Source of the DNA: a virus
DNA length: 20,960 nucleotides
Virus record (IMG/VR): IMGVR_UViG_3300047354_000437
Coordinates: 1-20,960 of that record
Strand: one strand, 5' to 3'
Shown here: positions 3,929 through 12,473 of the stretch, one piece after another
Layout: each line of letters starts with the position of its first letter
Numbering within the stretch: position 1 is the first letter of the stretch
Program-made: the position numbers and the translations under genes
Notes under the pieces: generated by a model
Told to the model about the DNA's origin: nothing
Seen by the model: only the letters and a program-made list of their open reading frames with translations
Databases searched by the model: none

Positions 3929-5998
3929 TTACTTAGATGTTTTACGTTCTATTCCGTCCCAATCTCCTACAGGCATAGGTTGTTTAATTCTTTCTGCATA
4001 AAGATCTGCTAGAGTATTGTTCCACTTATGATCTTTAATTATCTCTATTTGATGTGAACACTCTGCCCATGCCCTGTTTTGATAACTATCAACCATTCTG
4101 TTTACTACTCTTGCATATTTGTGATCATTTAGTATAGTATAAATTGTTACAGGATCAGTTTGTCCTTTTACTGCTATTTTATCCAGCATAGTTAAATTTT
4201 CTGGAGTGCTAATCTGTTTTAGTGTATGTTCTGTAAACATAAAGAATACACCGTACTCTTTTGTTTGTGCTTCTAGTCTCGCCGCTAAATTAACACTATC
4301 ACCTAAAACAGTATAATCAAAACGTTGGTTACTACCCATATTACCTACTACAGCATCTCCTGTATTAATACCTATACCAACACCTAACTCCATGAGTCCG
4401 TCTTCTTTAAGTTCTTTATTAAGATTTTTTAGTTCAACTTCCATTTCCTGTGCTGTTTCTATTGCCAACTGAGCATGATTGTCTACATCAAGTGGAGCAT
4501 TCCATATTGCCATTAAGGCATCGCCTATATACTTGTCTATTGTTCCTTCTTTACGCATAACTAAATCAGTCATTGGTGTCATATATCTATTAATAAGATT
4601 GCCCAAACCTTGTGGGTCTGTTTTAAACTGTTCCGATATCGGAGTAAATCCACGAATGTCTGAGAACAAGTATGTCATTGTTCTTGTGTCGCCACCTAAA
4701 CGTAATAAACTTGGATCTTTCTGTAACTTCTTAACCATTGCTGGTGCCAAGTAATGCTCAAATTGTTTTTTAATTTGTTCACGTAATTTAAACTGTTTGT
4801 AAAAGTTATTAAATGCCGCCTGTGTGAATACTAAAAAGCCACTTAATACAGGGAAAGACGCATCTAATAATACTAACTGGCTTGTATATAGATGTACACT
4901 ATAATACCCTATTCCGCCCAAGATAAGCAACGATACTGGCGCCGTTAGTAGTAAAGGGAGTCTATATACTGCTATTGCTACTAGAACCATTATCAGAAGT
5001 GCTGTCAGAAGCTCATAGAACGCGGCTGTTTGACTTCGTGTTATGTTACTGCCACTTATAAAGTTCTGTAGCATATGAGCTTGTATCTCTTGTGGATATA
5101 AGTTTCCACGTGGCGTTGGTACAGGGTTTGCTATACCCTCTGCTGTTACGCCTACTATAACCATTTTACCTGCTAAATCTGGTATGCTGTCTGCACCTGT
5201 ATACTCTATAGTTTCAAAACTATTATTAAATCGTATATATGCTGTACCATCTGGCTGTGTTACTATTGGTTCAACTCCTTTAACAGCAACCTCTTGTATA
5301 CCTATTTCACTGGTCTTAACTATATAACTTTTTTGCCCTCTGCTTACCCTAAGCATTTCAACTGCAAAACTAGGATAAATTCTGTCCTCTACAGTTATTG
5401 CTAATGGATAAGTCCTTGTTTGATTATCTGGTTGTGGGGCAGAAGCATTTACACCTTTACCATTCACTACAGACTCTAATATAGATATATTTGTAACTAA
5501 GTTGGGCCATTTAAGTAAATAGTCTTTTGCAGGTACTGGTCCTACTGTTCCTGTGCCTATATGAGGTCCTGATGTTTTTATACCTCTAACACTAGGTGTT
5601 TGACTTAGAACATTAAAATTAATAGGGTTACGCCTTGCTCCTTGTACATTTACTTTATTTTGTTCTAAGTATTGTCCAAATACTTCATCTCCACCAAAGC
5701 GATCTGATTCTGGAAACATTATTGTCCAACCTAAAACACCACTATTTTTACTAGCAACATCTACAACTAACTGAGCATAATATTGTCTGGGAAAAGGATA
5801 TTGCCCAAAGGTTGCTAACGTGTTTTCACCAAAGTTTAATAATACAATATCATTACTAGGTAAAATTTCGTCTAATTGCTGATAACTATCAAATACTTGT
5901 CCACGTAAACTTTGTACTGGAGTTGGATCTGCAACTCTGAGTACAAGTAAAAGTACAATAGATAGAGCTATCGCATAGCCACTGTATAACCATTTCAT
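3929..5998 (-). CDS. CHASE2-domain class III adenylate cyclase
   Basis: This is a membrane receptor that should turn ATP into cAMP in response to a periplasmic signal. Layout: TM at ~8-22, a CHASE2-type extracytoplasmic sensor at ~25-320, three TM segments at ~327-395, a linker helix, then the cyclase domain at ~435-600. The catalytic set is complete: metal-binding D447 (FSDIRGFT) and D493 (IGDALMAIW), adenine-selecting K489 and D567, transition-state N570 and R574. The K/D pair argues for ATP rather than GTP. A ~85-residue tail follows. The ATG is 5 nt after a late promoter octamer, with no SD. A receptor cyclase is unusual cargo for a lytic phage. It sits near the csg-like operon, and I recall CHASE2 cyclases often lying beside FecR-domain genes in bacteria, so the two may be linked; that is inference. 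Confidence 0.92.
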   Translation of the reverse strand: MKWLYSGYAIALSIVLLLVLRVADPTPVQSLRGQVFDSYQQLDEILPSNDIVLLNFGENTLATFGQYPFPRQYYAQLVVDVASKNSGVLGWTIMFPESDRFGGDEVFGQYLEQNKVNVQGARRNPINFNVLSQTPSVRGIKTSGPHIGTGTVGPVPAKDYLLKWPNLVTNISILESVVNGKGVNASAPQPDNQTRTYPLAITVEDRIYPSFAVEMLRVSRGQKSYIVKTSEIGIQEVAVKGVEPIVTQPDGTAYIRFNNSFETIEYTGADSIPDLAGKMVIVGVTAEGIANPVPTPRGNLYPQEIQAHMLQNFISGSNITRSQTAAFYELLTALLIMVLVAIAVYRLPLLLTAPVSLLILGGIGYYSVHLYTSQLVLLDASFPVLSGFLVFTQAAFNNFYKQFKLREQIKKQFEHYLAPAMVKKLQKDPSLLRLGGDTRTMTYLFSDIRGFTPISEQFKTDPQGLGNLINRYMTPMTDLVMRKEGTIDKYIGDALMAIWNAPLDVDNHAQLAIETAQEMEVELKNLNKELKEDGLMELGVGIGINTGDAVVGNMGSNQRFDYTVLGDSVNLAARLEAQTKEYGVFFMFTEHTLKQISTPENLTMLDKIAVKGQTDPVTIYTILNDHKYARVVNRMVDSYQNRAWAECSHQIEIIKDHKWNNTLADLYAERIKQPMPVGDWDGIERKTSK

Positions 5999-6003
5999 AC
6001 CGA

Positions 6004-6011
6004 TATTTATC
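6004..6011 (-). promoter_or_regulatory. T4-type late promoter (GATAAATA), cyclase gene
   Basis: The complement of 6004-6011 reads GATAAATA. It lies inside the palindrome CGATAAATATCG-like sequence at 6001-6012 and ends 5 nt before the cyclase ATG (5996-5998). The motif overlaps the end of the upstream 155-aa gene. No SD is present. Confidence 0.65.
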
Positions 6012-6474
6012 GTATTTTATTGCAATTTTGCTTGGCGTCATTTAGTAGTCTAAAGTTATTTACTACCACAAACATATATAGCATATTGGTGCTATTTAAT
6101 TCTTCTGGAGTAAGTTTTTTATAACCATCGTTATATAACAATGATGGAGCCAGTATTAAAGTTTTTGTTGCAACTATCCTAGAATCACTTGGACGTTCTG
6201 TGTATAATGGATTTATTTCTCTTATACAATCATACTTTATTGCTCGTGATGTTGAGTAAGCATCTAATATTTGGAGTGTAAAAAATGTAACCCATTGAAC
6301 TTTTGTTATTTTTTGATCCATATCAAACTTAAATGTGCTACTTGGAAGTTGTTGGCACTCTGGTGGATTATTATCGCAGTAATACGGGTCTAGTGGAAGA
6401 TTATAAGTGAGATCTAATGACATTGCATTCAAAGAAAAAAGCGACAATAAAAATATTATTACCGCTTTGATCAT
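6007..6474 (-). CDS. Small exported/membrane protein, DUF5658-like region
   Basis: This 155-aa protein starts with a typical signal peptide (hydrophobic ~3-15, probable cut after SLNAMS or nearby). The N-terminal periplasmic stretch has YCDNNPPEC. A hydrophobic segment (~57-72) leads to a TLQILDAYSTS...REINPLY pattern, resembling the D...T...E-NP layout of DUF5658-type small membrane proteins, and then a further hydrophobic helix. I cannot give a function. The start is 3 nt after the stop of the -1 frame of the upstream lipoprotein gene, so frameshifting there could couple to its initiation. Its SD is weak. The YCxxNPxEC motif is shared with the -1 frame extension of its neighbour. Confidence 0.7.
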   Translation of the reverse strand: MIKAVIIFLLSLFSLNAMSLDLTYNLPLDPYYCDNNPPECQQLPSSTFKFDMDQKITKVQWVTFFTLQILDAYSTSRAIKYDCIREINPLYTERPSDSRIVATKTLILAPSLLYNDGYKKLTPEELNSTNMLYMFVVVNNFRLLNDAKQNCNKIR

Positions 6475-6477
6475 TGT

Positions 6478-6606
6478 TTACTCGCACTCTTTAGGATTTT
6501 CAGAACAATATTTTTCAATTTTGTCCATATTTTCAAAAAGTAACTGCACCAACTCCTTGGTACTTAATTCCTTCTTACCATTTATCCTATCTAAGAAGGT
6601 TAGTCC
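6478..6606 (-). other. -1 frame extension of the lipoprotein (42 codons)
   Basis: Reading on in the -1 frame after the AAG of the slippery site gives GGA CTA ACC and 39 more codons to TAA 6478-6480. The segment ends EKYCSENPKECE and looks like real protein (Lys/Glu/Leu rich, no rare runs). It has no ATG except one 16 codons from its end, and no usable SD, so independent initiation is unlikely. The fusion product would be 146 aa (104 + 42). A simple indel in the A6 run, natural or from sequencing, would give the same picture. Confidence 0.55.
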
Positions 6607-6612
6607 TTTTTT
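6570..6612 (-). promoter_or_regulatory. Programmed -1 frameshift signal (slippery site + hairpin)
   Basis: On the - strand, A_AAA_AAG (6612-6606) is in the correct phase of the lipoprotein frame (CCA AAA AAG GAC TAA). After a 6-nt spacer (6605-6600), CCTTCTTA (6599-6592) and TAAGAAGG (6577-6570) form a perfect 8-bp stem with a 14-nt loop. Heptamer, 5-9 nt spacer and stem-loop are the three standard parts of a bacterial/phage -1 site. There is no T-tract after the stem, so it is not a normal terminator. Confidence 0.6.
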
Positions 6613-6917
6613 GGTGCTTCTTCTTCGTCTTGTAGCTCGTCTGTTTGTCTATCTACTTCATCGGAAACTGTTTTCACAACACCTTTTCCGAGGTCTGCTC
6701 CAGCAACAACAACAGTCTGTGCTGTATCAATTGCTAAAGTTCCAACAGATACAACATCATCAGCAACTGCTGTAGTTATTGTAGCCGCTCCGCCAACTAC
6801 TGCATCAACAGTACCTGTGACAACTTCTGTTCCTGCATTCCAAACACCCCCAACTGAGGCACAACTTGTCATGAGAAAAAGACTAAACATACCGAAGACA
6901 GTCGTTAAATTCTTCAT
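6600..6917 (-). CDS. Small lipoprotein (105 aa; candidate frameshift gene)
   Basis: The N-terminus is a lipoprotein signal: MKNLTT, hydrophobic core, lipobox LMTSC with C19 as the lipidated residue. The mature part is Val/Ala/Thr/Gly-rich with an amphipathic quasi-repeat (VVTGTVDAVVGGAATITTAVADDVVSVG and onward, about 11 residues per period), then an acidic tail ending APKKD. The start is well supported by AAGGAG 8 nt upstream. The leader holds a 9-bp hairpin and a late promoter. The last codons contain A_AAA_AAG, and a -1 shift would extend it by 42 residues. A short lipoprotein among tiny membrane proteins could be an outer-membrane lysis component (o-spanin type), but there is no motif that proves it. 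Confidence 0.82.
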   Translation of the reverse strand: MKNLTTVFGMFSLFLMTSCASVGGVWNAGTEVVTGTVDAVVGGAATITTAVADDVVSVGTLAIDTAQTVVVAGADLGKGVVKTVSDEVDRQTDELQDEEEAPKKD

Positions 6918-7011: not shown

Positions 7012-7317
7012 TTAAATTCTAAGATCGTTTAAAGGCTCTGCACCTAAACTGTGCATATCAGCATACCACAATTCTGTTAATAAAATTTCTCTTGTACTTT
7101 CGTTTTCTGTGGCGTGTATCAACATTATTAAATTGTCTCTGTTTGATTGTTCTATTGTATAAATTAATTCTACCCATTTATATAATAATAAAAACATTAG
7201 AGGAACACAAATCATTTTTAATAGAAGCAGTGGATAAAAATATGCAAGAATAAAAAAATGACCACCTAATAAAGTGTAGGCGTATATTTTTAAACTTTTA
7301 GTGTATTCCGATATCAT
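7012..7317 (-). CDS. Small two-TM membrane protein, paralogue of the next gene upstream
   Basis: This 101-aa protein opens MISEYTKSLKIY and has two hydrophobic segments (~12-30 and ~31-50) followed by a ~50-residue polar tail with acidic residues. The N-terminal half lines up with the neighbouring 96-aa protein (MISKFTNSLRVY, then a His at the start of TM1, then a turn with Pro), so the pair looks like a tandem duplication. The start overlaps the upstream gene by 20 nt. Size and topology would fit a holin or antiholin, but there is no family signature, and that role is a guess. Confidence 0.7.
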   Translation of the reverse strand: MISEYTKSLKIYAYTLLGGHFFILAYFYPLLLLKMICVPLMFLLLYKWVELIYTIEQSNRDNLIMLIHATENESTREILLTELWYADMHSLGAEPLNDLRI

Positions 7318-7588
7318 AATCTATTTCTAAAGGACTATCTACTACATAAAATGACAAGTCTGGTGTCATAAACATATTATTACTTAAGAACATTGCTTGG
7401 TCTGAAAAACCTGATTCTTTATGTACTTGGTGTATAATAGACATCACTATGCCTATATAAGCACATGGAATAAAAAATACAAATAATATTAAAGATGTTG
7501 TAGGGAACATTGTTATAAACAAAAGTATATGACCCATTGCGATTGTGCCGCCGTACACTCGTAAACTATTAGTAAATTTACTGATCAC
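7298..7588 (-). CDS. Small two-TM membrane protein (GTG start)
   Basis: This 96-aa protein begins at GTG (7586-7588), reading MISKFTNSLRVYGG. Two TM segments at ~12-28 and ~30-51 are followed by a soluble tail ending DIGIH. It overlaps the preceding 59-aa ORF by 11 nt and the following 101-aa gene by 20 nt, as in a translationally coupled trio. It is similar to the 101-aa protein in the first ~55 residues but not in the tail. Two related, differently tailed small membrane proteins in a row is a layout seen for holin/antiholin pairs; not proven. Confidence 0.7.
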   Translation of the reverse strand: MISKFTNSLRVYGGTIAMGHILLFITMFPTTSLILFVFFIPCAYIGIVMSIIHQVHKESGFSDQAMFLSNNMFMTPDLSFYVVDSPLEIDYDIGIH

Positions 7589-7803: not shown

Positions 7804-8115
7804 TTACGATAACTTTTTTTGAATCCATTTGAAACTTGCATATATAGTCAAACCATAGACTGCAAATATTGTGAGAGGTATTGCCAGATAAGCAATAGTC
7901 CAAAAGTCTAAAAATAGTAATTGTGTTGTAAAGTCTAATACTGCTTCAGCATCTCCCATAGGTTCCAGTTGTAATGTTTCTGTGCTGTATTCCATGTCAT
8001 ATGGTTCTAGCATTTCGTTGAAACTTTCTTCTGTTACACATACCATACCTTCAGGACATTCAAATCCTCCTAATTCATATGGTAGTGGGTTTCCTAAGTC
8101 ATCTAAACTTTGCAT
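7804..8115 (-). CDS. Small membrane protein ending the curli-like operon
   Basis: This 103-aa protein has no signal peptide. A ~65-residue acidic N-terminal part contains a Cys pair (FECPEGMVC), followed by one long hydrophobic segment (~68-93) and a basic end (KWIQKKLS), so the likely topology is N-terminus outside, C-terminus in the cytoplasm. The start overlaps the stop of the second curlin-like gene (TAATG), so it belongs to the same operon. It could be an inner-membrane partner or chaperone for the exported proteins. I do not recognise a family. The Cys pair facing the periplasm matches the other proteins of this operon. Confidence 0.72.
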   Translation of the reverse strand: MQSLDDLGNPLPYELGGFECPEGMVCVTEESFNEMLEPYDMEYSTETLQLEPMGDAEAVLDFTTQLLFLDFWTIAYLAIPLTIFAVYGLTIYASFKWIQKKLS

Positions 8116-9005
8116 TAGTTATTCTGATTCACTGTAACTGAACAGCCTCCTCCATTATTACATATACCTGTAAGAGTATATGTTACTGCTGATGTTGAAA
8201 CATTTTGATTTAAATCAAATGTGTAAGCACCTGTACCAAATGTTAAATCAACTGTTGCAGAAGCATAATTTGTACCACGTTGATTAATATCAACACTATG
8301 ACCATTGCCGTCTAAAACAATGTCTGCCCATTTTTTACCACCACTGCCTTTTTGGTCTAAAATTACATCATTGTGATTGCCTGTGACTTCTATAAATCCG
8401 TCGTGTCCTGCCTTGCCTCTTTGTCTATGCCAAACATCATTATAGTCGCCATCAATTATATTTGCTAAGTGATGACTGTCTCCATTTCCACTATCTCGGT
8501 TAGTGTCTGTTTGAAAACTAGAAAACTCATTGTAGTCGCCTGTTACAGTCCAATATGCTTCGTGATCGCCTGTTTCATCTGTGTCAATGGAGCCGTCATG
8601 GTGCATACCTTGGAATACAAGTCCTGTATTATTTGTTCCAAATCCTGATAATCTAACAAAATTATCATTACCGCCGCCACCTTGGAATACTTTTAAAGTA
8701 TTAAGACCGCCACTGGTCCAATTACCTTCAAACAGATTACTAGTACCTGTTTGCATAATATGTAAAGTATTGTCGTCTCCTGCAAACTGGCTTGAGGTTG
8801 ATATACCTGTGACTGTGTTATCAGTACCTGCTTGTAGTATGTCTAGTTCTAAATTATCACCACTTATGTTACCTAAATATACTTCATTGTCATCTGCATT
8901 TGCTGATAAGGGTATTAATAAAAACATACCCAATATGATATATCCTAATACTAGTAGTGGAGTATCTTTGGGTCTCATTTCACTAAGTTGCTTATCTATG
9001 CTCAT
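8115..9005 (-). CDS. Curlin-repeat-like exported protein 2
   Basis: This is a candidate curli-type fibre subunit. The signal peptide spans ~10-37, with a cut after SANA leaving DDNEVYLG. The mature protein has repeated beta-strand units of the curlin kind (hydrophobic-polar alternation with QxGxxN turns): DILQAGTDNTVTG, HIMQTGTSNLFEG, VDINQRGTNYA, plus degenerate GDYN/GNHN turns, about ten in all. The canonical unit is Sx5QxGxxNxAx3Q; here several Gln and Asn positions remain. The C-terminus has a Cys pair (ICNNGGGC), which E. coli CsgA and CsgB lack. The mature N-terminus is clearly related to the 267-aa curlin-like protein upstream. A late octamer ends 5 nt before the ATG. The role as CsgG cargo is inferred from operon context. 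Confidence 0.7.
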   Translation of the reverse strand: MSIDKQLSEMRPKDTPLLVLGYIILGMFLLIPLSANADDNEVYLGNISGDNLELDILQAGTDNTVTGISTSSQFAGDDNTLHIMQTGTSNLFEGNWTSGGLNTLKVFQGGGGNDNFVRLSGFGTNNTGLVFQGMHHDGSIDTDETGDHEAYWTVTGDYNEFSSFQTDTNRDSGNGDSHHLANIIDGDYNDVWHRQRGKAGHDGFIEVTGNHNDVILDQKGSGGKKWADIVLDGNGHSVDINQRGTNYASATVDLTFGTGAYTFDLNQNVSTSAVTYTLTGICNNGGGCSVTVNQNN

Positions 9006-9010
9006 ATTAC

Positions 9011-9018
9011 TATTTATT
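9011..9018 (-). promoter_or_regulatory. T4-type late promoter (AATAAATA), curlin-like gene 2
   Basis: The complement reads AATAAATA, a NATAAATA variant. It overlaps the stop of the FecR-domain gene and ends 5 nt before the ATG at 9005 (AATAAATAGTAATATG, almost the same string as GATAAATAGTAACATG before the gp14-like gene). It would allow extra, internal transcription of the second curlin-like gene. Confidence 0.55.
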
Positions 9019-10186
9019 ACTCTTGTGTGATACTAATGAATATTCCTTCACATTCATTAAGGCACATTATAGTATCTCCTAAATCTTTATCACTGACTTC
9101 TATTTGTCCTGAATTGCCTCTTTTTATTTTTAAACTAACATAGTTTGTACCTTGCCTTAAAAAGAATACTTTACCATCTACATCAGGTACAATATTAAAC
9201 TGATTATCAGGCTGTAATCCAAATGCTCTGTCTACTAATCTATCACCTGCTGTGGCTTCTTCTCGTGTACCTAAAGTATCTGCTTCTTCCATAACCTCTA
9301 ATAAATCCCTTAAGAAGTCAACATCTAAAAAGTTTATATCTAATTCTGAAAATTCTAATTCACGTTCTGCTTGTTCGTCTAATCCTTCAATTTCTAAAAG
9401 GTCTATATCTAATCCGTTAAAGTCTAACAAGCCACCATCTCCTTTTAATTGATCTGCTTGTTCTTCTTCTGCCTGTACTATTTCGTCAGGCTTACTTATA
9501 ATAAACATATTGTCTATCTGATTTAAATCTAAGTCTACTAATGTTACAGGTTGTGTTGGTGCTTGTTCAAATGTACTAACCATCACTGCCTGAAAGGCTT
9601 CTTCTAATGTTACTGTTCCGCCATCATTAGTAACTGTTATACTACCACTGGGCCTACACCCTTCCTCTAATTTTACTTTGTCATCGCAATTAGCATCTGG
9701 TAATAATATAACTAAACTTCTACCCAATTCGTCAACTGTTGTAGTAAAATCTGTTCCCCTAATACCTATTGTGGCAGTAGGAGTTTGTATAACTATATTT
9801 TCTTTTGGTACTAAACCTAACCCGCCTGTGGCAAACCGTGCAGTCCCTTGCACAAAGTTCATTGCCATTTTACTTTTACTTGGGTCTGGGTCATAAACAT
9901 ACTCGTCTATTTCCATATATGTGTGTTCTGTTAAACTGACCTGTGTTTCATCAACAAACTGTATTTTAAGCCTGCCGTTCTCTGTTTCAACTTCGTCGAA
10001 ACTTACTATGTCTGTTTCTAAGTTTGCTGTTAGTTCTTCACCTGAAAGGCGAAATATATTTCCAGCCTTTCCACTTTGCTCAATTATGCCGCCAATTGAA
10101 TCATCGGCGGCATAAACATTTCCGATTGCAATTAGTAAAACTGCGACTAAAAGATTAGTCGGTTTGTTTAATACTAACTGAAGCAT
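9017..10186 (-). CDS. Exported FecR-domain protein
   Basis: Signal peptide 1-26 (cut after VYA). Residues ~50-160 form a FecR domain (PF04773 type), shown by DETQVSLTEHTYMEIDEYVYDP, NFVQGTARFATGG and TPTATIGIRGTDF (135-147). The middle (~205-305) is very acidic and Leu/Asp/Glu-rich, with irregular repeats (LDIDLLEIEGLDE, LDINFLDVDFL). The C-terminus is a small beta region with a Cys pair (CLNEC); another pair lies at NCDDKVKLEEGC. Free-standing FecR-domain proteins act in the periplasm as sensors or scaffolds; this one has no TM anchor and no sigma-factor partner here. The start lies 32 nt inside the upstream curlin-like gene, with no SD, so coupling is expected. The position between two curlin-like genes suggests a periplasmic assembly or surface component. 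Confidence 0.85.
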   Translation of the reverse strand: MLQLVLNKPTNLLVAVLLIAIGNVYAADDSIGGIIEQSGKAGNIFRLSGEELTANLETDIVSFDEVETENGRLKIQFVDETQVSLTEHTYMEIDEYVYDPDPSKSKMAMNFVQGTARFATGGLGLVPKENIVIQTPTATIGIRGTDFTTTVDELGRSLVILLPDANCDDKVKLEEGCRPSGSITVTNDGGTVTLEEAFQAVMVSTFEQAPTQPVTLVDLDLNQIDNMFIISKPDEIVQAEEEQADQLKGDGGLLDFNGLDIDLLEIEGLDEQAERELEFSELDINFLDVDFLRDLLEVMEEADTLGTREEATAGDRLVDRAFGLQPDNQFNIVPDVDGKVFFLRQGTNYVSLKIKRGNSGQIEVSDKDLGDTIMCLNECEGIFISITQE

Positions 10187-10958
10187 TTTCGCTGTCTAAC
10201 TCGACATTAATAATACCGTGACATGCAGGTGAACAGGTTGTAGTCATATTCTGAGTGAACTGGAAATCTCCATCACTACCTGTTAAGTCTACTGTTAAAC
10301 TGTGATCACTGTTACCACTTTGATTAGTAGCAAAAGCATTGTCATCACCTGTAATATCAAAGTTCCATACAACGTTGTCTGCATCAACTAAGATACCTAC
10401 CATTGCACTTGAACCTGTACAGTTTGTTCCACAAGAGTCACCATCTCCAGCCGCCGCCCAAACTTTACTATTTGTAAAACTAGTGTCGAAATCATTTCTG
10501 TCACCTAGTATTACTAAATCAAAGTTTAAACCTTCTGCACTGGCATTTTCACCTATACCTATGTCAAATAAGTTACCGTCACCCTGAATGCTTGAAAGCA
10601 TATCAGCATTATCGGCACTATTATCCCCTACGTCAAAATCAAAGATGTTGCCATCTCCTAGATTGTAAAAATCTAACACAGTTGATCCTGAACCGTCCAA
10701 AACAAGTGCACCAAAGAAATCATTGTTGTCACCGTCTTGTATAAGGTCTAATATTATGTTGTTACCAGTAAGTGTTAAGTCTGCTGTTGCACCGCTATTA
10801 CCAGACACAGTATTACCTGTACCTGCTTGTAGAATTGTTAATGTAAGGTTATCACCTTCCTGATCTATTAACACTTCGTTGTCATCAGCAATTACTGGGT
10901 TAGACATAAGTCCTATTAATGCGAAGACACCAACCGCTAAGTTTTTAATTATCTTCAT
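10155..10958 (-). CDS. Curlin-repeat-like exported protein 1
   Basis: I start this gene at the ATG at 10958 rather than 30 nt upstream, because GGAG lies 7 nt before it and it gives a clean signal peptide (MKIIKNLAVGVFALIG..., cut after VIA). The 267-aa protein then reads DDNEVLIDQEGDN and has curlin-like units: LTILQAGTGNTVSG, LDLIQDGDNNDFFG, SSIQGDGNLFDIG, VILGDRNDF, then QTD at the end. Mature N-terminal residues match curlin-like protein 2. Cys pairs (CGTNC, CSPAC) are unusual for curlins. The protein is very acidic (Asp-rich), so beta-helix folding may be calcium-aided. It overlaps csgG by 14 nt. The fibre subunit role is inferred from repeats plus context. Confidence 0.72.
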   Translation of the reverse strand: MKIIKNLAVGVFALIGLMSNPVIADDNEVLIDQEGDNLTLTILQAGTGNTVSGNSGATADLTLTGNNIILDLIQDGDNNDFFGALVLDGSGSTVLDFYNLGDGNIFDFDVGDNSADNADMLSSIQGDGNLFDIGIGENASAEGLNFDLVILGDRNDFDTSFTNSKVWAAAGDGDSCGTNCTGSSAMVGILVDADNVVWNFDITGDDNAFATNQSGNSDHSLTVDLTGSDGDFQFTQNMTTTCSPACHGIINVELDSENASVSIKQTD

Positions 10959-11982
10959 TATTTTTCTCCAATATTGGTTTATTTTCATTCTTTAAAAGAA
11001 TGCGTTTCCACAAAGGTAAATCATTTGGATCTTTAGAGTACTGTTCTTCATCTTCCTCGTCAGTAAGATTGCCTGCTTCTTTAAGACTCATCCAGTATGC
11101 TTGTTCTTGTTCTGCAACTTGTTGGTCCCAATCCTCAGGATAAACAATCTTCCAATATCCTCTTTCATCACCTTGCCTAATAAGTTCTAACACCGCGGCC
11201 TCGATCGCTGATCGGACTGCAAATGTTACACTTTCATTCTGTGTCATACCGCTTTCAAGTTCTAACAAACGAGTATCCATATCTACAAATCTAAATACGT
11301 CTCCTGCTTGTCCTGAACTTAAAACAGTTTTTTGTGTTTGCACGTTTAATATAACTTCACCTGTAAGTGTGCTTACAGCACGAAGTGATATTACTATGCT
11401 ATCTCTTCGATATTGGTTTGTTGTCCCAATACCCAAATATCTTGCCCCTGTACCTCCTGATTCAATATTAGTGTCGTATCCTATAACACCACCTTCTAAT
11501 ATCATACCAGCAAATAACATTGGCTGTAGTTCTTGAAACTCCTCTAGTCCGTTCTGCTTGGCAGTTTCGGATCTAGTACTTCGAACTATTTGTCTTTCTC
11601 TAACTAAGTTATCTAAACCTAGTCCTCTTTCAACTACTCTAAACCAAGTTCCTTTGGCATCACTACCTGAACCTGCCGCCTTTAGAGCGTCTACTAATAA
11701 ACTTTTTGCATCTTGCGTAACTGCTGTACTAAAACTAGCAACTCCGTCTTGACTTTTTCTTTGGCCTGTGCCATCTCCAAATTGATATATAGCAACCACA
11801 GGCATAACTTCTGCCGGTGGCAAATATCTAAGTTTTCTATATGTGGGTAGTTCAACTTTCTTAGGTTCTTCAACACACTCAAGAAAGTCTGTTTGGCACA
11901 TCTCATCGCCCGGAATAGCGATACTGGCACAACCACTTAAATATAAAACACCTATTAGTGCTATTAAAATATTTTTAGTCAT
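10945..11982 (-). CDS. csgG: CsgG-family outer-membrane curli secretion lipoprotein
   Basis: CsgG forms the nonameric outer-membrane pore through which curli subunits leave the cell. The lipobox is LSGC with C18 lipidated. The CsgG domain runs from ~55 to ~280 and matches the E. coli protein closely in key places: ASFSTAVTQDA, VVERGLGLDNLVRERQIVR, GGVIGYDTN, GGTGARYLGIGTTNQYRRD, SAIEAAVLELIRQGDERGYW. The constriction loop differs: E. coli has Tyr, Asn, Phe (mature Y51, N55, F56); here the Phe remains (F84) but Ser replaces Asn, no Tyr is present and the loop is one residue longer. A ~60-residue charged tail is extra. A strong AGGTGG SD precedes the TAATG overlap with csgF. Very confident on family; the phage role is inferred. 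Confidence 0.95.
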   Translation of the reverse strand: MTKNILIALIGVLYLSGCASIAIPGDEMCQTDFLECVEEPKKVELPTYRKLRYLPPAEVMPVVAIYQFGDGTGQRKSQDGVASFSTAVTQDAKSLLVDALKAAGSGSDAKGTWFRVVERGLGLDNLVRERQIVRSTRSETAKQNGLEEFQELQPMLFAGMILEGGVIGYDTNIESGGTGARYLGIGTTNQYRRDSIVISLRAVSTLTGEVILNVQTQKTVLSSGQAGDVFRFVDMDTRLLELESGMTQNESVTFAVRSAIEAAVLELIRQGDERGYWKIVYPEDWDQQVAEQEQAYWMSLKEAGNLTDEEDEEQYSKDPNDLPLWKRILLKNENKPILEKNNEDN

Positions 11983-12473
11983 TAACCACCTGCAATTTGG
12001 CCAATACCAATTGGTATTTCTATTGTTGTTATTGTTCCATCTGGGTCTACAATAGTAAGTTTAATTACTTCTAACCCATCTGCATTTGTAATAACTTCAT
12101 AGGTAACTGTATTACCTTCAATATCAAATGCTCCACTTGTTGATCCAGTACAACTAATTACGGTTGCAGGATCACAAAACATACTATCAACTAATCCTTT
12201 AGAAATTTGTGAATAAATCCTACTCTCCAAATTTCTAATAAATTTATTAATCGTGCTATTTTGATCTGCTCGTTCAGCCGCCTTTAAGGCCGCTTCTATA
12301 TCTGCTTTAATTTTATCCTTACGTGACTTTTCCTGGTTCTCAATAGTCAAATAATGAGCACCTGTTCCTTGTCCGCTAAAACTAGGATTCTTAAATTTAA
12401 ATTTAATTTCATCTGCTTGTAGACTAAAACTAAAAAGTCCTAGTAAAAAACATACTGGTAATATTATTTTCAT
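11982..12473 (-). CDS. csgF: CsgF-like curli assembly factor
   Basis: CsgF plugs into the CsgG pore and guides the nucleator in curli assembly. The signal peptide (cut after LQA) leaves DEIKFKFKNPSFSG, matching the FxFxNPxFxG peptide by which E. coli CsgF inserts into CsgG. The helical middle (~50-95, KSRKDKIKADIEAALKAAERAD, then RNLESRIYSQISKGL) corresponds to the CsgF helix but is longer. The C-terminal beta part (TYEVITNADGLEVIKLTIVDPDGTITTIEIP) matches the CsgF tail. Length is 163 aa against 138 in E. coli. Two Cys (MFCDPATVISC) are extra. The order csgF then csgG is as in E. coli (csgDEFG). ATGA overlap upstream and TAATG overlap downstream show tight coupling. Confidence 0.93.
   Translation of the reverse strand: MKIILPVCFLLGLFSFSLQADEIKFKFKNPSFSGQGTGAHYLTIENQEKSRKDKIKADIEAALKAAERADQNSTINKFIRNLESRIYSQISKGLVDSMFCDPATVISCTGSTSGAFDIEGNTVTYEVITNADGLEVIKLTIVDPDGTITTIEIPIGIGQIAGG

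Follow-up and report, generated by a model that had tools for sequence, protein, structure and literature searches.

The window considered here, a 20,960-base stretch that constitutes the IMG/VR virus record IMGVR_UViG_3300047354_000437, carries on its minus strand a gene for a small lipoprotein of outer-membrane type. Judged by comparison with its relatives, this one gene almost certainly yields two membrane proteins, a lipoprotein of 105 amino acids and a form of 146 amino acids with a cysteine-containing tail, as a preliminary description of the DNA had proposed. It is very likely that the longer form arises by a canonical bacterial -1 programmed ribosomal frameshift. As in other -1 frameshift genes, an in-phase heptamer lies near the stop, a structure is predicted downstream and the -1 frame is conserved as protein; conserved slip sites, conserved -1 coding and a signal of RNA structure all emerge from the comparative analysis. 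The mechanism is a known one in an unexpected kind of gene. As far as we have searched, frameshifting is new in this gene class, that of an outer-membrane-type lipoprotein carrying an 11/3 amphipathic helix, and no frameshifting in such a lipoprotein gene was found in the literature or in the protein-family libraries searched.

The slip site and its conservation

The lipoprotein frame, identified as an open reading frame and as a homologue family, runs from 6917 to 6600 and would give the default product. It ends in CCA AAA AAG GAC TAA, which places the heptamer A_AAA_AAG at 6612-6606, and this is followed by a spacer of 6 nucleotides, GACTAA (6600..6605), that contains the stop codon TAA (6602-6600). 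The preliminary description was correct on the phase of the heptamer and on the spacer; it placed the heptamer two codons before the stop, however, and only one sense codon (GAC) lies between them.

We identified 70 distinct relatives in IMG/VR contigs, counted after removal of identical stop regions and forming 21 clusters at 80% identity. They came from overlapping sets of loci obtained in scans with the single sequence (12 loci), an alignment (80), a diverged member (26) and the tail alone (35 and 9). A heptamer of the form X_XXY_YYZ adjoins the stop in phase in 66 of the 70, being A_AAA_AAG in 45, G_GGA_AAG in 12, C_CCA_AAA in seven, and C_CCA_AAC and G_GGA_AAC in one each. Long open reading frames of the same contigs contain such heptamers in frame with a frequency of 0.44% per codon, and the chance expectation of one in the last four codons is about 2%. 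The motif has also been exchanged within clusters, A_AAA_AAG for G_GGA_AAG, C_CCA_AAA for G_GGA_AAG, and the tetramer A_AAG for G_GGA_AAC. Parsimony places at least 12 slip-motif changes on the tree, to motifs of the X_XXA_AAN type or to A_AAG and with the tail retained, although tree counts are rough because the closeness of the window and L019 on the tree reflects a near-identical stretch of DNA, probably a recombination block. That stretch covers the mature coding region and stands between a diverged signal peptide and a diverged tail. In 68 of the 70 homologues the heptamer itself or some other -1 slip motif is present, which is the conservation that the preliminary description had suggested looking for. 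In Escherichia coli, V_VVA_AAR heptamers shift most efficiently and the tetramer A_AAG is likewise prone to shifting (PMC4066793). One homologue, L133, has C_CCA_AAA and A_AAA_AAG overlapping and both in phase at a single junction (804-814).

The homopolymer at the junction raises two other explanations of the frames. One is that a sequencing error or plain indel has split a single open reading frame of 146 amino acids, and to this we give next to no weight. The run of six A's is not an assembly indel, because independent contigs (L002 and L003) are identical at the junction and in the relatives the two frames stand in the same relation even where the heptamer is another one. All 70 relatives, including those with other heptamers, are two-frame, and no homologue joining lipoprotein and tail in one frame was found among them; an indel and a one-frame homologue had both been named beforehand as grounds for abandoning a frameshift, and neither was encountered. 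The other is that RNA polymerase slips on the A run, giving mRNAs of mixed A number, and that the ribosome does not slip. Transcriptional slippage is a recognised alternative (reviewed in PMC5009743) and the window does have such a run. However, homologues with G_GGA_AAG, C_CCA_AAC or G_GGA_AAC, which have three A's, keep both phase and tail, and this argues against transcriptional slippage; moreover the motif is always in the phase for tandem slippage, and structure follows it in most lineages. Polymerase slippage is accordingly regarded as very improbable.

RNA structure downstream of the slip site

Folding predicts a stimulatory hairpin at 6599-6570, in which CCTTCTTA (6599-6592) pairs with TAAGAAGG (6577-6570). 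Written as RNA this is a perfect 8-bp stem, CCUUCUUA/UAAGAAGG, with a 14-nucleotide loop, as originally described. A second hairpin of uncertain role, GUACCAA/UUGGUGC (6546..6563), is predicted in the window and its close relatives, and the 60 nucleotides after the window heptamer, both hairpins included, fold with z = -3.7. In most lineages a hairpin starts 4-13 nucleotides 3' of the heptamer, and it is at this similar spacing that stems of unrelated sequence recur: CCUUCUUA in the window, GCCUGUUCUC in L024, CCUUUUCUC in L059, GCUCUUC in L075, CCUUUUCUCU in L134 and CUUCAUC in L157. Over 35 lineages, among which related ones are not fully independent, the mean folding z was -1.47 directly after the heptamer compared with -0.59 elsewhere (Wilcoxon p = 0.0008).

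The tail in the -1 frame

The -1 frame is open over 6606-6478, as had been noted. Its 42 sense codons, from GGA to GAG (6606-6481), encode GLTFLDRINGKKELSTKELVQLLFENMDKIEKYCSENPKECE, a predicted helix with a C-x6-C motif, and end at a stop codon at 6480-6478, giving a fusion of 104 + 42 = 146 amino acids. Gene finders that halt at the 0-frame stop would miss this tail. The pooled ratio of nonsynonymous to synonymous polymorphism (pN/pS) in the -1 frame, which the preliminary description had expected to be low, was 0.30 in the window group, 0.28 in a salt-marsh group, 0.27 in the L059 group and 0.59 in the C_CCA_AAA group, whereas the same DNA in other reading frames gave 0.75-2.1; the test is a contrast and not a proof, because some control frames also have pN/pS below 1. 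By this comparison, purifying selection acts on the tail as read in the -1 frame. All 68 -1 frame tails have exactly two cysteines, spaced as C-x6-C in 62 and as C-x5-C in six, and an alignment of 18 diverged members (A5) has the cysteine pair, with an invariant first cysteine and an invariant lysine at the slip. AlphaFold predicts a helix with a confidence score (pLDDT) of 82 overall and about 95 over residues 21-40, the conserved half. A Foldseek search with the tail model returned no relative.

It could be argued that the tail is instead a separate small gene, for which ribosomes would use a start codon within it or would re-initiate once past the lipoprotein stop. The preliminary description considered the -1 frame to be without a usable start, which is too strong for the window itself, where TTG, GTG and ATG codons occur 50, 53 and 74 nucleotides past the 0-frame stop and an AAGGAG lies right at the TTG. 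These codons are, however, inside the conserved tail, and the residues directly past the slip site are conserved as well; neither a start nor a ribosome-binding site is conserved, and a separate gene leaves the heptamer unexplained. The claim does hold for six of the 25 lineages examined (L059, L083, L099, L079, L082 and L110), whose -1 open reading frame lacks ATG, GTG and TTG altogether, and in these the tail is therefore reachable only from the lipoprotein frame or from a rare start codon. Searches with the tail alone brought in additional lineages, and in almost all of these the lipoprotein and the heptamer directly precede the tail. An independent tail gene seems to us very unlikely.

Several observations weigh against the frameshift interpretation. 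L013 and L111 have G_GAA_AAG, which supplies the tetramer A_AAG and not a full heptamer, and L112 likewise has A_AAG only. Two contigs, L153 and L154, have the tail in the -2/+1 frame (GAA GAA AAG AAG TAG) with no standard heptamer and are thus exceptions to the -1 pattern. It is possible that the direction of frameshifting has switched inside one family; the tail genes of different phages variously use -1, -2 or +1 shifts (PMC5009743). The tree behind the 12 motif changes is poorly resolved, and the low pN/pS of some control frames counts on the same side. Folding found no clear hairpin in the group of L141, L143, L152 and L156, which has A_AAA_AAG, and in the window taken alone the folding z at +3 ranks ninth of 17 among neighbouring 45-nucleotide positions, which is not exceptional.

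Proposed mechanism and comparison with known systems

From this evidence we infer slippage and its rate, the localisation of the products and a disulfide bond, along the following lines. Most ribosomes would stop at 6602-6600 and release the short lipoprotein, consisting of a signal peptide, a lipidated cysteine and a long 11/3 amphipathic helix that is expected to lie on the membrane. A minority would be held up by the hairpin 6 nucleotides downstream of the heptamer, and the tRNAs of the P and A sites (tRNA-Lys in each case in the window) could then re-pair one base back on A_AAA_AAG. The shifted ribosomes would read the -1 frame and add the 42-residue helical tail, whose two cysteines are probably linked to each other by a disulfide in the periplasm. 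One mRNA would in this way supply plain and tailed subunits in a fixed ratio, as with gpG and gpGT of lambda.

The best-known cases of frameshifting in phages are tail chaperones and virion proteins. The G/GT tail chaperone gene, shared by lambda and other long-tailed phages, uses in lambda G_GGA_AAG, a heptamer also present here in 12 sequences, but the product here is a lipoprotein with signal peptide and lipobox and a cysteine pair in its tail, and it has no similarity to G/GT. Nor does its setting correspond to that of a tail chaperone, as no tape measure gene stood beside it in the neighbourhoods read; one homologue, L083, gave a weak PHROG match to a tape measure family (E 0.011). Frameshifting produces minority C-terminally extended products in gp10 of T7 and T3 and in the Ig-like domains of A2, A118 and PSA (PMC5009743). 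The lipoprotein gene resembles these in its minority C-terminal extension, whereas theirs are virion proteins and the lipoprotein is predicted to reside in the host envelope. Upstream of its slip site dnaX has a Shine-Dalgarno stimulator, and none of this kind was seen at the lipoprotein gene. The dnaX gene and the IS3-family transposases share with it A_AAA_AAG with a downstream stem, a heptamer of the same efficient class (PMC4066793), but are enzyme genes. Frameshifting is thus linked to a probable host-envelope lipoprotein of marine phages by unusually clean comparative evidence, in which the slip motif is exchanged and the tail kept. The slip sites and stems of the family form a naturally interchangeable set, and its two-form membrane protein is directly testable.

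Features of the lipoprotein family

A Shine-Dalgarno sequence, AAGGAG (6930-6925), lies 7 nucleotides 5' of the ATG at 6917, and a lipoprotein signal peptide ending in the lipobox ...LMTSC is read at 6861..6917. Cys19 is the predicted lipid-bearing residue and is followed at +2 by alanine, which is of outer-membrane type. Across the family the lipobox cysteine is the sole invariant cysteine (alignment A4), and the +2 residue is A, S, G or T in 68 of 68 homologues and never Asp. By sequence, therefore, the family has the signal peptide, the lipobox cysteine and the non-Asp +2 residue expected of outer-membrane lipoproteins. The mature lipoprotein has a single cysteine. In all eight mature lipoproteins tested hydrophobicity has a period of 96-98 degrees, that is, an 11/3 periodicity, a feature of synuclein-like and apolipoprotein-like helices that lie on membranes. 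The AlphaFold model of the lipoprotein was helical with a pLDDT of 53 and was taken no further.

Searches of Pfam, PHROG, NCBIfam and PDB gave no family convincingly matching the lipoprotein, which is thus without a counterpart in Pfam or PHROGs; PDB profile searches gave no match, and NCBIfam gave weak, generic lipoprotein matches only. Membership of NF038104 was considered and rejected, the best score being 19.8 bits (E 4.6e-4, in L075) against an NCBI cut-off of 50 bits. Searches by tblastn with the lipoprotein and several diverged members found no match in cultured phages. A profile search of HTVC008M and Melnitz gave only two chance-level matches, inside a 687-amino-acid frame in HTVC008M, and bacterial genomes gave only one spurious short match. 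The gene is common to many uncultured marine viruses of bacteria, with one copy per contig in each of six long contigs.

Genomic context and possible functions

The next gene on the minus strand (6007..6474) encodes an exported protein with weak similarity in profile search to DUF5658 (E 3e-4, below the Pfam cut-off). Its ATG at 6474 lies 3 nucleotides past the tail stop, as the preliminary description stated, but the translational coupling suggested there is rejected as a general role because the gap varies from -4 to 199 nucleotides across homologues and the next genes differ. Near its N-terminus this protein has YCDNNPPEC, almost the same as YCSENPKEC of the tail, and a neighbour of this type also follows the lipoprotein in L017, L018, L019, L135, L143, L145, L147, L153 and L154. 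In the six-frame translation of all fetched loci (2.2 million residues) the pattern [YFW]Cx2NPx2C was confined to the tails and the next-gene product. The shared YC-x2-NP-x2-C sequence suggests either that the two have a partner in common or that the loop has a single origin in both.

In the window lineage the lipoprotein gene is flanked by a curli-like cluster and a CHASE2 cyclase gene, and in L097-L108 it adjoins Rz-like spanins. In the salt-marsh group, whose gp43 DNA polymerase is closest to those of cyanophages, it is found between gp43 and nuclease, UvsX-like and helicase-like genes (names from our own reading of the open reading frames), and in L089 a lysozyme and spanins lie nearby. 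The gene therefore belongs to no single module, and these changing neighbourhoods argue against a function in curli or in lysis alone. The lipoprotein might be an accessory of the adjoining phage curli-like secretion system (CsgG, CsgF and curlin repeats), as its position in the window and some relatives would suggest. This is unlikely, however, given where the other lineages place the gene, and in HTVC008M and Melnitz, which have the curli cluster, no copy of the gene was detected.

A role as an outer-membrane lysis factor is doubtful, though less so. Like the phage o-spanin Rz1, the protein is a small outer-membrane-type lipoprotein that is encoded near lysis genes in some relatives, with Rz-like and lipoprotein spanins adjoining in L097-L108 and lysozyme with spanins in L089. 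Those genomes, however, already hold a separate spanin pair, because of which the lipoprotein is not the o-spanin there; in addition the gene neither lies within an Rz gene nor overlaps an i-spanin gene, and it has other neighbourhoods without lysis genes.

Llp of T5 is a small phage lipoprotein that acts at the host outer membrane in superinfection exclusion, and it is possible, somewhat more so than a lysis role, that the present lipoprotein likewise excludes superinfecting phages there. Lipoproteins of this class, to which Cor also belongs, act by blocking a receptor. The present protein too is a small outer-membrane-type lipoprotein, of a T4-like phage, and a small hydrophobic membrane protein sometimes adjoins it. 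It has, however, no detectable similarity to Llp, for which we know of no frameshift, and it matched no family of Pfam, PHROG or NCBIfam at cut-off. A named function, be it superinfection exclusion, a lysis accessory or another, should be put forward tentatively at most.

The tailed form may be a minority component of a lipoprotein assembly that lies on the membrane. Our first guess is that such an assembly modifies the envelope, its few tailed subunits binding a periplasmic or inner-membrane partner. It is conceivable, with equal reservation, that a widespread group of uncultured T4-like marine phages builds a two-component lipoprotein assembly in the host envelope in which slippage sets the tailed share, and that the tail and the next-gene product present the same YC-x2-NP-x2-C disulfide loop, both docking to or competing for one periplasmic partner.

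The curli-like cluster of the window (8115-12473, minus strand) comprises curlin repeats, a FecR domain, CsgG (E 3.5e-46) and CsgF, and is known from the pelagimyophages HTVC008M and Melnitz (PMC7029224). The CHASE2 and adenylate/guanylate cyclase gene (3929-5998, minus strand) also has homologues in both. Upstream of the lipoprotein gene an open reading frame (7012..7317, minus strand) encodes a small hydrophobic, presumably membrane, protein; its kin, or similar-looking small proteins, precede the lipoprotein gene in several lineages, and the two families concerned (16 and 19) had no significant match to each other. Two such proteins of about 100 amino acids each, tandem paralogues, are encoded at 7012-7588 on the minus strand. 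The phage is T4-like, with a gp15-type sheath stabiliser. The isolates nearest to it, at about 39% identity, are PA5oct-like jumbo phages, and they have the gene order gp15, NUDIX, hypothetical in common with it.
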